NCBI GenBank assembly: GCA_030693325.1
Contig: JAUYAV010000011.1
Coordinates: 65,368-109,602, forward strand
Origin: a bacterium
Lineage (GTDB): Bacteria; Patescibacteriota; Minisyncoccia; UBA6257; MFKM01
Direction of reading: 5' to 3'
DNA: 44,235 nucleotides
Below are positions 4,398 through 12,226 of this stretch, one piece after another. Numbering within the stretch: position 1 is the stretch's first letter; each line of letters begins with the position of its first letter. The notes under the pieces were generated by a model that saw only the letters and a program-made list of their open reading frames with translations, was not told the origin of the DNA and ran no database searches. A program made the translations under genes and the position numbers.

Positions 4398-4692
4398 AAG
4401 ATTTTTTTGTTTTTATTTTTGTCTTAATTCGTTTTTTCCCGGTTGAGGCAATAGATTTGGATTTCTGTTTTTTGATGGCCTCTTCCAATTGAACGCGGTT
4501 GAAATTTATTAAAATCTTTCCGTCAATATCAAAAACCGGCACCGCCAACTGATGGGATTTTTCCAGCATTTCCTTTTGAGCTTTTTCGTCCCTGCTAATA
4601 TCATATTCTTTATAGGCAATCTTTTTCTCTTTAAGAAACTCCTTGGCCATCTCGCAAAAAACGCAGGCGGGAGTAGTATAAATTTTAATCAT
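4318..4692 (-). CDS. Glutaredoxin-like protein with basic C-terminal tail overlapping trxB
   Basis: Residues 1-76 form a glutaredoxin/NrdH-like thioredoxin fold. The redox motif is C10-V-F-C13 in TTPACVFC, followed by the cis-Pro region AVPVFDIDGK. It would act as a small dithiol reductant, probably reduced by the trxB product encoded immediately downstream. Residues about 77-124 form a Lys/Arg-rich tail. Its last 27 residues are read from trxB coding DNA in another frame, an 80-nt overlap that is extreme for this genome. An A7 run just before the trxB ATG could join the two frames by slippage, or hide an indel in an original Grx-TrxB fusion. The domain call is firm; whether the tail is functional is uncertain. 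Confidence 0.85.
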   Translation of the reverse strand: MIKIYTTPACVFCEMAKEFLKEKKIAYKEYDISRDEKAQKEMLEKSHQLAVPVFDIDGKILINFNRVQLEEAIKKQKSKSIASTGKKRIKTKIKTKKSYGTRSDNRRRGTGRSGRRNLRRPKKT

Positions 4693-4700
4693 TTGGTTTA

Positions 4701-4855
4701 AATAATCTGTGAATTACGAAACTCCAATTTTGCCGATAACAGGCAAAAAGATTTTTCTGAAATCTAAACGGAAGCGCAGGATTTGCAAAGCAAATCCGTG
4801 AGCGGATTGAAGAAAATATTTTCGCCTGTTATTAACTCGTAATTCACAGAAATAA
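4701..4855. mobile_element. MITE-like foldback element between divergent genes
   Basis: Terminal inverted repeats of 14 nt (TCTGTGAATTACGA at 4706-4719 and its exact reverse complement at 4837-4850) enclose further nested inverted repeats. ATAACAGGC (4736-4744) pairs with 4824-4832. A tight central hairpin, GGATTTGC-AAA-GCAAATCC, lies at 4779-4797. The 145-bp unit is flanked by AATAA on both sides (4701-4705, 4851-4855), which could be a 5-bp target duplication, although the area is AT-rich. It encodes no protein. It may be a non-autonomous transposon relic or a large regulatory or terminator hairpin between the glutaredoxin and flippase genes. Confidence 0.6.
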
Positions 4856-7593: not shown

Positions 7594-10500
7594 TTAGGGG
7601 GCTATTCCAAAATGGAAATATATATCACCGACGCATTGCCAAGAAAAAGCAGGGGCGCCGATGTAATAGCAAGCGTCATAACTGCTATTTTCATAAGAGT
7701 TAGAACCTGCCCCATAGATACGAAAATTATCATCGCCGTAACGAGTGCCAGCGTAATGAATAAAATAATACAAACCAGGGTCTAATGTAATACTATTGTC
7801 TAAAAGAATACAAACCTCGCCGGCAATTTCAGGGGGAATCCCCCACCAACCAGTAATTTGAGTGTACCCGGTCATATTAGCCCCATTTTGGGGGTCGGTC
7901 GGTTGAGAATATAATTCAAAACCAGTAGCAAACGCTCCCCATTTGGGGTCAACTCTTTGCTGGAGCCAAAGACATACTCGGTTAATTGTTTGGGAATTTC
8001 CTTTATTGATAAATTGAGTTATAGCATTTGACCATTGGCTATTAGCCCATATCAAATTATCATGATTTAGTTGACCCACGGGAACGGCGATGGAAGCGGT
8101 GCTGATTGCCGAACCTAATCTCTCTTTATCAAACGTCTGAATGGAAAATTGGTAATCACGGCCCACTTCGTTAATGGAAATTTCGGCCGTTGTTGAGGCG
8201 GTATTAATTACCTCTAAAGTTGAACTGGTATTGCTAATATCGGTAATTTTGTAAGTTAAACTTGAAGTGGCGCCGGAATAATCCTGCGACGCCTGCCAAT
8301 TGAAAATTAATTTCATTGTTGAAGAAGAGTATCGCACGACAAAGTCGGCGGGAGCGGCAGGCGCGGAACGCGGCTCAGGGAAACTTAAAGAATTTTGAGG
8401 ATTGGGAATTGAGCGAATTTCAAAATCAATAGCGTCATCGGTATCGCAACCGTTGCCTAAAAATTCACCGTCATTTTGGCTGGAAATACACTGGTTATTA
8501 TAGAAAGCTTTTCGCTCTAAACTTTGCCCTTCGGATATTCCAACATTCTCAAGAATGTTGGAATAATTTATTTGATCAATTCCAGAGCCTTGATTATCAA
8601 TTAAATAAATGGTGCTTGTGCTATTAGGTAAAGTGGCTGACCGGATAATATCGGCAGGCGTACTGGTACTAATATAACTATTAAATCCAACCAAAAGAAA
8701 ACTTTTCCTTTTTATTAGAGTAATATCTTCGGGCTTGGAACCAAATTTAGCTAATGAATCGGTTGAGGTGGCACCATTCTTTAAAATTCTTAAAGACCAA
8801 TCGTTGATATCAATCTCACTATTGGTGGGATTATAAAGTTCAATAAATTCTTTGCCTTCGTCTAGTCCTTGGGGATTAAAAAGAATTTCACTGATAACAA
8901 TATGATTAGCTTCACCTAATTGTCCAACAGAAATAATAGTTGAAGTCGCGGTTGAAGAAGTATTCTGGTCGTCAAAAACAACTAAACCGACTTGGTAATC
9001 GCCGGCTTGAAAATAAGTATGAATAGTGGTGGTGGTTGTTGCCGAAGAAGTCGCATTATCACCAAAATCCCACTGATAAGAAATAATTTGACCATCATCA
9101 GTTGAAGAGGCGGCATTAAACGTAATTACATCGCCGACCTTCGGATTTTGTGGAGAATAACTGAAAGAGGCATCAGGAGCTTGATTAGGTTGCTCAATGG
9201 AACTAACAGAAATAGTAGAAGTGGCAGTGGAAGAAGCGTTTTGATTATCAAAAACAATTAAGCTTACTTGATAATCACCAGCTTGGGAATAATTATGCGT
9301 AGTAGTGGCGATAGAAATTGTTGAAGTGGCATTGTCGCCAAAATCCCATTGATAAAGTGAAATTGTTCCATCGGAATCGGGATCGCTTGAAGAAGCGGCG
9401 TTAAAAGTAATTAAATCACCAACAACAGGATTCGTTGGAGTATAAACAAAAAAAGCGCTCGGCGCCTGATTAGTCGCAGAACAATTTTTTGGCTGGGCTT
9501 TCGGGCTCGGACAAGTTTGAATTTCAAAATCCTGAGAGTTATTATTGGTATCAATAAAAGTATTATTTTGAAATTTTCTCTGAATGCTTTGATTTTCGTT
9601 GGGATTGACAGCTGAACCTGATCCCTCAAAATCCACAACACTTCCCCAGCCAACTTTATCGGCTACTTCCTGATTGGGATTTTTTAATTGAAGAGTGTTG
9701 TCTTCCGTTAAAGCCATGCCGGAAACGACAACATCGGAATAAGTTGAAGTTGCCCGAAAAATCACAAAATAACTTTTAGCCTCTATTATTTTACCTTCGA
9801 AATTATTTTTAGAAACAAATGAATTGAAATCACTGCCAGTTTGAGTTTTTCTTTGAAGGTACCAACCACTCAAACTGACAGCTTGGTCGTTTGGGTTGTA
9901 AAGTTCTATAAATCTATTCTCGATTGGAGAAATTTGAATTTCATTAATTAAAATTTTTGAATATTGGATAGCGACGGTTGATTGGTTTAAATTGCCGGCT
10001 GGCGGATTATTTACTCCGCCTCCTCCGCCGCCATAAATAATAATATAACCGGAACTATTAACCGCTTTTGGCGTGCCGCCGGCATTAGCCGATGTCTGCC
10101 AACTCAAATCATTTTTTCTTTCCATTGTCTGTTTGGAAACATTATCGCCCGCTGGCCAGCTTGGATTCGCTAAAACCTCATCGATTAAATTACATTGACC
10201 GTCAAAAAGCCGCAAACCTTCATTAGTATTGGAAAGCCCGCCGGTATAAATTTTATCGGCTGAAATATTTGGCACCGAATTATCATCGGTACGCTCCAAA
10301 AGATAAAATCCTCCAGTCGGAATTTTATCTCCATTTTCAAAAGTGATTTTGATTTGCTCGCCTTGGTCAATTAATTGGTGTCCACTCAGGTTTAATTCGG
10401 CGCCGGAAATATTTTTCAGTTCAATCCATTCGTCATTGGCGCTATTAGCGGTTCCCATCCAAGCCACTTCGTTGATAATAATTTTTTGTCGAGACGGAGA

Positions 10501-11121
10501 TTGGGAAGTTGCGAAACTACACTGTTTAAAACTCACTGCCTGTGGCGGGCTACTGGTTGCTTGTTGGATTTGTTCTTGTTGTTTTATCTGTTCTTCTTGT
10601 CGAGGCGTTATCTCTTCGCCCTGTTCTTCTGTTTCTTCTGAAATATCTATCAGCGATTCTTGTTTTTTAACAACAACCGGCTGGGAATTTTCTTTTTTCG
10701 GCGTACCGCCGATTGCGGCTGAGGTATGCCAAGTTAAATCGCTGTTATTTCGTTCCATTGTTTTTTTAGCGGCGTTATCCCCCGCCGGCCATTTAGAATT
10801 AGCCAAAACCTCGTCGATAAGATTGCATCCGCCGTCAAACAATCTTAACCCTTCATCGGTGTTTGAAAGAGCGCCGCTATAAATCAAATCGGCTTTTACC
10901 GAAGAAACCGCCTCATCTCCATTTCTTTCTAAAAGAAAAAATCCGCCGGCTGGAATAACCGTGTTTTTATCAAAAACAATTTTTATCTGCTCGCCTCGGT
11001 CCAAAAGCTGATAGCCGGAAATATCAATAGAATTGCCGGAAATATTTTTTAATTCAATCCATTCATCGTTGGCGTTGCTACCCCCCCCCCCCCCCGCTCC
11101 CGCCCATCCAAGCGACTTCAT
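7594..11121 (-). CDS. Large secreted lamin-tail/PKD repeat protein, downstream part of a frame-split gene
   Basis: This reading frame continues the gene starting at 12226, but in a different frame after the poly-G tract (11081-11095). An isolated start (ATG 11121 or TTG 11178) would give an out-of-frame lead of little meaning and no signal peptide. Modules after the tract, in order, are: lamin-tail domain 1 (SNANDEWIELKNIS...), a Q/E-rich linker, lamin-tail 2 (KIIINEVAWMGTANSANDEW), a Gly linker, lamin-tail 3 (INEIQISPIENRFIELYNP), two PKD domains (YQWDFGDNATS twice), lamin-tail 4 (FIELYNPTNSEIDINDW), an FN3-like domain, and a C-terminal beta-rich domain ending FHFGIAP. Such extracellular adhesion or scaffold modules are common in CPR cell-surface proteins. 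A 28-bp palindrome lies within lamin-tail 4. The function is inferred from modules only. Confidence 0.85.
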   Translation of the reverse strand: MKSLGWAGAGGGGGSNANDEWIELKNISGNSIDISGYQLLDRGEQIKIVFDKNTVIPAGGFFLLERNGDEAVSSVKADLIYSGALSNTDEGLRLFDGGCNLIDEVLANSKWPAGDNAAKKTMERNNSDLTWHTSAAIGGTPKKENSQPVVVKKQESLIDISEETEEQGEEITPRQEEQIKQQEQIQQATSSPPQAVSFKQCSFATSQSPSRQKIIINEVAWMGTANSANDEWIELKNISGAELNLSGHQLIDQGEQIKITFENGDKIPTGGFYLLERTDDNSVPNISADKIYTGGLSNTNEGLRLFDGQCNLIDEVLANPSWPAGDNVSKQTMERKNDLSWQTSANAGGTPKAVNSSGYIIIYGGGGGGVNNPPAGNLNQSTVAIQYSKILINEIQISPIENRFIELYNPNDQAVSLSGWYLQRKTQTGSDFNSFVSKNNFEGKIIEAKSYFVIFRATSTYSDVVVSGMALTEDNTLQLKNPNQEVADKVGWGSVVDFEGSGSAVNPNENQSIQRKFQNNTFIDTNNNSQDFEIQTCPSPKAQPKNCSATNQAPSAFFVYTPTNPVVGDLITFNAASSSDPDSDGTISLYQWDFGDNATSTISIATTTHNYSQAGDYQVSLIVFDNQNASSTATSTISVSSIEQPNQAPDASFSYSPQNPKVGDVITFNAASSTDDGQIISYQWDFGDNATSSATTTTTIHTYFQAGDYQVGLVVFDDQNTSSTATSTIISVGQLGEANHIVISEILFNPQGLDEGKEFIELYNPTNSEIDINDWSLRILKNGATSTDSLAKFGSKPEDITLIKRKSFLLVGFNSYISTSTPADIIRSATLPNSTSTIYLIDNQGSGIDQINYSNILENVGISEGQSLERKAFYNNQCISSQNDGEFLGNGCDTDDAIDFEIRSIPNPQNSLSFPEPRSAPAAPADFVVRYSSSTMKLIFNWQASQDYSGATSSLTYKITDISNTSSTLEVINTASTTAEISINEVGRDYQFSIQTFDKERLGSAISTASIAVPVGQLNHDNLIWANSQWSNAITQFINKGNSQTINRVCLWLQQRVDPKWGAFATGFELYSQPTDPQNGANMTGYTQITGWWGIPPEIAGEVCILLDNSITLDPGLYYFIHYAGTRYGDDNFRIYGAGSNSYENSSYDACYYIGAPAFSWQCVGDIYFHFGIAP
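8537..8564. repeat. 28-bp palindrome inside lamin-tail module 4 coding sequence
   Basis: Arms ATTCCAACATTCT (8537-8549) and its reverse complement (8552-8564) are separated by CA. In the protein it encodes most of YSNILENVGIS, between the end of the lamin-tail fold and the conserved SEGQSLERK segment. It resembles the trmH internal palindrome in style but not in sequence. Confidence 0.85.
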
Positions 11122-12226
11122 TGATGATGACTTTTGAATGCGACGCTGATTTTTGAGTATCAAAAGAACACTGTTCAAAATTCGCTGACCGAGACGCCTG
11201 TCCAGATTGATCCAACTGCGTTTCTTGAGATAAATCTATTACCTGCGCCAACTGAAATTCATCCTTTTTAAAAACATTGGAAAATGTTTCTTTGATTGCT
11301 TGAGCAACCTCAACAACTTTTTCAACTCCAGCATTAACTATAGAAACAGCGGCCCGTCCAATGGCTACGGGTAGCTTAAAAGCAACAAAGGACACTCCAT
11401 TTGCAATATGGTCTGCGACAGCAAACATCGCCCCTTCTATTTTATGCACTATAGAAAGTTTTGGCGAAGCAAGGCACGGTTTCTGCGCGTCTTGTACATT
11501 ATTTGTTTTTAACTGATCAAGCGAAGATTCAATACCAGAAACGATTTTATCACCTTGATATTTTAGGTAGATATCAGAAAAACCATGCCCTGAAGAACTA
11601 TCACCTTCTTGTAATTCAATATGAACATTGGACGGTAAAATTTTTCTAGTAAATTGAATACGAGCCACAAGGCCAGTAATAACCTTATCAGTATCAGAGG
11701 TGATCCATTTACCGCTACCAGCAACCCGAGATGAAGGAGTTGCCACGCTATAAATAGCAAGGGATTGAGAAGGAACCCCGCCATCTTTGTCAGCAACTAC
11801 ATCATAAAAACTATTAGCATAAAAATTTCCTTGAGAATGAGCGACGAGGAGCAATTTTTGGGTGGCAACTTTTTCACTGGCGGTCTTGAGCATTTCTACG
11901 AGATCATAATCCTCTACTGTTTCAGAATCAAAAAGCCCTTGATAAATTGATTTTAAAATATCGCCGAGTCCGGCGAGATGGGATTCGTTATGGAGATAAT
12001 CAACGGCCAGGGGTTCGCCATTGTAATTTTTTCCAAAATAATATTTTAAGGCATCTCTATTAGAAATAGCACCATCTTTATTAGTTAGAATCCCGTTAAT
12101 CGTGATGATTGTATAGCCATTCGACGAACAAGTTTGGCTCCCTGTTTGAGCAAAAACAGCAAATGGAGACATAGCAAACAAAACAGCCATTATGGCTATT
12201 TTAAATTTTATTGAAAAATAGTTCAT
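11078..12226 (-). CDS. Secreted alpha/beta-hydrolase-like N-terminal part of the lamin-tail/PKD protein (frame-split)
   Basis: The 382-residue frame begins with a signal peptide (residues 1-26, ending AVFA before QTGSQ). Residues about 38-230 resemble an alpha/beta-hydrolase or lipase fold: ITINGILTN oxyanion-like strand and nucleophile elbow A-H-S131-Q-G. The catalytic Asp and His are not certain. It ends in KVIINEVAWMGGSGGGGG, the beginning of a lamin-tail domain whose remainder lies in the next frame after the poly-G tract. An internal homologue, VAWMGTANSANDEW, shows the expected continuation, so this and the downstream frame are one gene of about 1540 codons. In the present 15-G state translation stops right after the tract, releasing a short secreted hydrolase-like protein without the adhesive modules. 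It starts 6 nt after the 12233-12868 gene. Confidence 0.85.
   Translation of the reverse strand: MNYFSIKFKIAIMAVLFAMSPFAVFAQTGSQTCSSNGYTIITINGILTNKDGAISNRDALKYYFGKNYNGEPLAVDYLHNESHLAGLGDILKSIYQGLFDSETVEDYDLVEMLKTASEKVATQKLLLVAHSQGNFYANSFYDVVADKDGGVPSQSLAIYSVATPSSRVAGSGKWITSDTDKVITGLVARIQFTRKILPSNVHIELQEGDSSSGHGFSDIYLKYQGDKIVSGIESSLDQLKTNNVQDAQKPCLASPKLSIVHKIEGAMFAVADHIANGVSFVAFKLPVAIGRAAVSIVNAGVEKVVEVAQAIKETFSNVFKKDEFQLAQVIDLSQETQLDQSGQASRSANFEQCSFDTQKSASHSKVIINEVAWMGGSGGGGG
11081..11095 (-). repeat. 15-nt poly-G (coding strand) tract: candidate phase-variation switch
   Basis: Fifteen consecutive C on the plus strand (G on the coding strand) lie inside the first lamin-tail domain of the secreted protein. 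With 15 G the frame reaches TAG immediately. With 14 or 17 G it reads through into SNANDEWIELKN. Such a run in a low-GC genome, in a surface-protein gene, is the hallmark of a slipped-strand contingency locus. A sequencing or assembly miscount of the homopolymer is the main alternative. Confidence 0.9.

Follow-up and report, generated by a model that had tools for sequence, protein, structure and literature searches.

A 15-G tract in the gene of a predicted secreted modular protein as a candidate contingency locus in a Patescibacterium

Introduction

Is a gene that is broken at a run of 15 G a lost gene, a wrongly counted one, or one that can be switched on again? The question was raised by a gene in a 44,235-nucleotide stretch of a 661-kb bacterial genome (NCBI GenBank assembly GCA_030693325.1, contig JAUYAV010000011.1, positions 65,368 to 109,602), hereafter called the window. 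The genome's size and its genes are consistent with a Patescibacterium, and from this a host-attached (episymbiont) life is presumed. How the surface is varied matters for cells with half-megabase genomes that presumably live on other microbes. A switch based on slippage needs no extra genes, and would give such cells bet-hedging against host changes, rival epibionts, and phages.

Poly-G phase variation is described for meningococcal hmbR and hpuAB in an excerpt of PMC3786947, and the G/C tracts of Campylobacter in an excerpt of PMC8355987. The available portion of PMC11868660 defines phase variation by single-locus change, reversibility and a minimal (high) switching rate, in the strict sense for a surface molecule, and cautions that homopolymer indels without demonstrated reversal should not be given this name. 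Since that source requires reversibility and rate to be shown, the window gene is called a candidate here. A single locus that could switch is present in one assembly, as a 15-G tract within the reading frame, with its phase arithmetic.

Results

A 15-G tract divides one gene

The tract was located at 11081-11095 on the minus strand (15 G on the coding strand, 15 C on the plus strand), and the TAG stop of the upstream frame follows it directly, as the first-pass annotation had stated. The upstream frame (11078-12226, minus strand, 382 aa) starts with a hydrophobic, signal-like N-terminus (about residues 1-26, MNYFSIKFKIAIMAVLFAMSPFAVFAQ) and runs through a serine-hydrolase-like domain and a linker into the first residues of a lamin-tail domain (LTD). 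The continuation of this LTD, SNANDEWIELKN, was found in the downstream frame (7594-11080, minus strand), one frame away from the 382-aa ORF. The LTD that is cut in two by the tract spans 10701-11131, and a second, intact internal copy (VAWMGTANSANDEW) lies in the downstream frame at 10059-10476, both on the minus strand with limits drawn by eye from the translations; the resumption of the domain and the intact copy had both been read correctly. The downstream frame holds the rest of the first LTD, more LTDs, two PKD domains, a weak fn3 domain and a C-terminal region without a domain assignment. PF00932 (lamin tail domain) matched it in four stretches with 178 bits against a cut-off of 34.3, and Pfam also reported the two PKD domains, with the fn3 match below threshold.

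After the tract, 1161 codons remain open up to the downstream frame's own stop. The ORF listed for this part (7594-11178) begins with a TTG 5ʹ of the tract and has no signal-like N-terminus; in the ORF list and translation, no convincing start of its own was seen for it. When the product was computed by script for different tract lengths, 14 G gave 1543 aa, 15 G gave 382 aa, 16 G gave 392 aa and 17 G gave 1544 aa, which agreed with the earlier prediction that 14 or 17 G would restore an intact protein of about 1540 residues. The signal-like N-terminus and the LTD and PKD domains suggest that the protein is secreted and displayed on the surface, and from their domain content the LTD and PKD parts of the long form would act as adhesion modules.

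Alpha/beta serine hydrolases have a GxSxG-type nucleophile motif together with Asp and His. As candidates for these in the hydrolase-like domain, HSQG (residues 130-133), Asp180 and His214 were invariant in 13 of 13 hydrolase sequences. The label of serine-hydrolase-like is taken from these invariant motifs, and not from a family model or a structure: no Pfam or NCBIfam family scored above its cut-off in this domain, the best match among PDB sequences was a lipase with an unconvincing E value of 0.28, and AlphaFold run on the window protein alone (without alignment) gave a mean pLDDT of 30.8 and no usable model.

The gene is unbroken in relatives

When the 382-aa protein was searched against 244 genomes of the order, 59 gave matches, this genome included. 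Of the 58 other genomes, 12 had a match across the hydrolase domain, and in 46 the match was confined to the neighbourhood of the query's LTD end. All 12 hydrolase-bearing genomes had the gene as one long open frame of 803-1637 aa (two cut by contig ends) in which the longest G run was 5, and an LTD match was present in the hydrolase frame in 10 of them (not in G035 and G076). The same-genus genome carried an unbroken ORF of 1452 aa with 61% identity over the query, and its loop reads AWMGGLNSANDEW, without the tract. Since all 12 relatives were unbroken and tract-free, the tract and the break are specific to this genome. The ancestral state was most likely an unbroken, tract-free gene, and the tract most likely arose within the lineage of this genome, in a loop rich in glycine codons. 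Poly-glycine stretches of mixed GGN codons were found elsewhere in the window protein and in five relatives, suggesting how a G run could arise.

The contigs of 84,980 species genomes were scanned for 9 G followed within 24 bases by codons for DEW[IV]E. Only one stretch was retrieved, in a Saprospiraceae record, and it was not an LTD frame. The idea of an LTD switch as a general device was discarded, with no other poly-G in an LTD loop among these 84,980 genomes. The tract was missing from the same-genus relative, from the 11 others and from LTD loops elsewhere; therefore the switch is not conserved, and the tract may be young or accidental.

The tract and its length

Apart from the tract, the longest run of G in the window is 6, and the 661-kb genome has only two runs of at least 8 on both strands, this tract and one G10. 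Eight G8 matches were observed in the window, a number that 0 of 100 window shuffles reached. A first-order Markov model fitted to the window expected 0.0009 runs of at least 15 in 661 kb on both strands, and this model is generous, because it predicts about 13 runs of at least 8 and the genome has 2. Long G runs in general are rarer in this genome than the model expects, and the 15-G run is far outside it. A chance run was ruled out by the shuffle, genome-wide and Markov counts. A false join through poly-G was also judged unlikely: the tract sits inside a 186-kb contig and both flanks match one ortholog, and therefore the tract itself is not an artefact.

Runs of 15 are difficult for most sequencing chemistries and assemblers. 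The main rival to a contingency locus is accordingly a miscounted homopolymer, in which the true length is fixed and in frame, sequencing or consensus calling went wrong in giving 15, and the gene is permanently on. The in-frame orthologs in all 12 relatives would fit a miscount, as would further very long G runs, described below, that adjoin contig ends or N gaps and look artefactual. The position inside the contig, between the flanks of one ortholog, argues that the tract is real, and the repair capacity of these bacteria argues against a fixed length. None of 41 genomes (this one and 40 relatives) matched the MutS family PF00488, with a control that was positive in 11 of 14 known genomes. 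Without MutS-dependent repair, a 15-G run should change length often, and a constant length would be surprising in this run. We consider a miscount unlikely.

The downstream part has remained open

Decay of the downstream frame had been named beforehand as a ground for rejecting a switch, and it was absent. Over the downstream part, its own frame has one stop, at its end, and the other two frames contain 123 and 60. In the comparison with the same-genus ortholog, pN/pS was 0.51 downstream and 0.40 upstream; these values mostly reflect selection before the tract arose, and no decay since then is visible.

These results bear on the possibility of a one-way loss, in which an accidental tract made a fresh pseudogene in this strain and there is no selected switch. 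Such a loss would agree with the presence of the tract in 0 of 12 other genomes, with a state known from a single genome, and with the caution on homopolymer indels without reversal in the available portion of PMC11868660. The 1161 downstream codons that are still open argue against it, as does the run itself, for 15 G are far more than a frameshift needs and a G run can slip back. A one-way loss thus appears quite improbable to us.

A programmed slippage site would be expected to be conserved, and the orthologs have no conserved tract, which speaks against slippage during expression. An excerpt of PMC2831843 describes polymerase slippage on poly(A) tracts of B. aphidicola that leads to in-frame mRNAs, and the 15-G run could act like these, with RNA polymerase or the ribosome slipping on a fixed 15-G gene to give short and long protein in a set ratio, but we regard this as very improbable.

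On balance, we find it fairly probable that the gene, for a secreted modular protein, is a contingency locus driven by slippage, and propose it as a candidate. It would encode one large secreted protein with lamin-tail and PKD modules after a serine-hydrolase-like domain, and the glycine-rich loop of the first LTD would have turned into a G run in this genome's lineage. Replication slippage would add or remove G's. One phase in three would give the full protein of about 1543 residues, and in the other two, translation would end no more than about ten residues past the tract and give the secreted hydrolase part only; the assembled 15 G would be an OFF length. We would expect slippage at a high rate, reversibility and a mixed population, and the benefit would be a varied display of the cell towards host, rivals or phages.

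G tracts elsewhere in the genome and the order

Other surface genes of the genome had been proposed as places to look for G tracts. This was borne out in part, by the G10 upstream of a pilin gene; no third run of at least 8 was found in the genome. The G10 run (L013:5247-5256, on contig C19 of this genome, G000) has a response-regulator gene on one side and a pilin-motif gene on the other; the latter is an ORF with the prokaryotic N-terminal methylation (type IV pilin) motif, and the run precedes it by 111 bases. The same response-regulator/pilin layout occurs with G12 in L059 (G189), which was taken from the order-wide survey of G runs and is outside the 30 loci below, and with shorter runs in L140, L141 and L154. 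From 189 genomes with a match, 30 response-regulator loci were read. The pilin motif was recognizable in 28 of them, and a run of G7 or longer was present within 300 bases upstream in four of these 28 (L134, which is in this genome, L140, L141 and L154). L160 had G8 and no pilin motif, and the same-genus locus (L148) had no such tract. A conserved pilin-promoter tract was only partly upheld, with G7 or longer at 4 of 28 loci.

Across the order, G runs of at least 12 were found in 20 of 244 genomes at 21 places (two facing tracts in G068 counted as one). All neighbourhoods were read, and Pfam was run on chosen neighbours; two places are doubtful, the one in G010 because it is at a contig end and the one in G068 because it adjoins N's. 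Seven of the 21 places were in or beside reverse transcriptase (RT) genes (L047, L051, L054, L057, L058, L060 and L061, the L047 tract also adjoining N's), a clustering for which a crude binomial estimate gave 4e-10. Five others were inside non-RT genes, a small sample in which a hydrophobic N-terminus was seen by eye in all five and three were out of frame. The broken genes were the window gene, with its 15 G; a membrane-anchored dCache domain protein (L055, G163), broken into two frames by G13 at 4525-4537; and a secreted Big/dockerin protein (L052, G109), whose split by G19 at a Gly linker (4736-4754) makes it a close parallel to the window gene. The tract was in frame in a prepilin-like protein without a Pfam match (L050) and in a solute-binding protein (L053).

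Four places were 38-65 bases upstream of a gene, namely those for a pilin (L059), an NHL/DUF2341 protein (L056), a bPH_2 protein (L044) and a glycosyltransferase (L046). The remaining five (L025, L045, L048, L049 and L062) were intergenic or doubtful and without pattern, with the tract behind a ParE-like gene in L025 and behind a queuosine-salvage gene in L048. An even draw of 379 genomes of the phylum had runs of at least 13 in 21 genomes. Tracts were just upstream of exported-protein genes in L200 and L204 and between avd-like and RT-like frames in L206, and many tracts fit no pattern. The distribution of tracts in the order and phylum resembles that of pathogen contingency loci and provides candidate cases.

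Very long G/C runs were also observed at contig ends or N gaps, at L195:1-61, L213:1-23, L199:1501-1524 and L049:4494-4609. These are probably sequencing or assembly artefacts and are better excluded from surveys of G tracts.

G tracts at diversity-generating retroelements

The RT of L060 was used as a query and gave matches in 104 of 244 genomes, from which the 30 best-scoring loci (L103-L132), not a random sample, were read. In 26 of these 30 loci, the space between the divergently oriented avd and RT genes held a run of G7-14 (RT strand), 13-51 bases before the RT start (once 155); L104, L107, L121 and L123 had no such tract, and avd was not found in L108, where the contig was too short. 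In the example locus L060, the tract is at 4491-4502, and RVT_1 and bAvd were above cut-off in Pfam. Six loci were tested for template/variable repeat pairs, and five of them had pairs whose mismatches all fall on A (or T) of one copy; no such pair was found in L051. Judged by RVT_1 and bAvd in L060 and by these repeat pairs, the avd/RT loci are diversity-generating retroelements (DGRs).

The N-terminal block of Avd (near RNxLPIIQKL) starts directly after the tract. On the far side, 25 of the 26 loci have an ATG at most 60 bases away that opens into the tract, versus 9.4 expected from shuffles, and in 4 of the 25 (L108, L115, L118 and L120) this ATG shares the frame of Avd. L119 has in-frame ATGs at greater distance, the tract-free L121 has one as well, and some far-side ATGs are inside the RT coding region; in the wider test for in-frame ATGs, Avd was not recognized in L104, L108 and L130, and the results for L107 and L123 appear to be erroneous. 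In some loci, Avd could start at a GTG or TTG that follows the tract. From their layout, the tracts in 26 of the 30 best-scoring DGR loci are placed so that slippage could switch Avd translation, as in a candidate phase-variable mutator. Slippage of the DGR tract would then turn targeted hypermutation on or off.

RT genes that are themselves broken were also noticed, in loci picked because their matches were split. The split into two frames was near query residue 122-135 in 11 loci (L164-L169, L171, L173 and L175-L177) and near query residue 180-198 in five (L179-L183). G11 or G12 was at the break in 2 of the 11 (L166 and L177), and most breaks were without a homopolymer. L178 has a G12 in frame at the first break site.

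Discussion

The wider idea of contingency loci in such bacteria gains support from the other loci of the order. We put forward tentatively, at somewhat less than an even chance, that MutS-less bacteria of this order with tiny genomes use G tracts as contingency switches on their display towards other cells, at secreted modular proteins, pilin promoters and even the mutator machinery (DGR avd). Should the DGR tract switch as well, two diversification systems would be connected in series, slippage and targeted hypermutation.

Among titles and the starts of abstracts, in a literature with preprints and most subscription journals outside its scope, we found no report of homopolymer phase variation in Patescibacteria, of phase-variable avd, or of G tracts switching DGRs. 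The match for phase variation in Patescibacteria was, by the start of its abstract, about archaeal methylation, and the listed titles on phase-variable DGRs mostly concerned gut phages or Bacteroidales. The large DGR survey PMC8144416, in its main text, names Patescibacteria once, under DGR clade 2, and a word search of that text gave no homopolymer, poly-G, phase varia, frameshift or Avd.

Compared with the DGRs of Patescibacteria (clade 2 in the main text of PMC8144416), which are a diversification system of related genomes and also have G tracts, the window gene has no adjoining RT, Avd or template repeat, and only the type of tract is in common. Like other exported proteins with PF00932, which matches in many genomes of the order, its product would carry several LTD copies in one large protein; unlike them, it has a G tract in an LTD loop, found in this genome only. 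The meningococcal and Campylobacter loci share with it a long G tract within the reading frame of a gene for an exported (here, predicted exported) protein, two truncated phases out of three, and a downstream frame that is kept open. Unlike those loci, the window gene is a candidate known here from one assembly, it probably comes from an uncultured bacterium of a host-attached lineage, and its tract is in the middle of the gene. Because the tract follows a complete secreted domain, the OFF state of the window gene would still leave a short secreted product.
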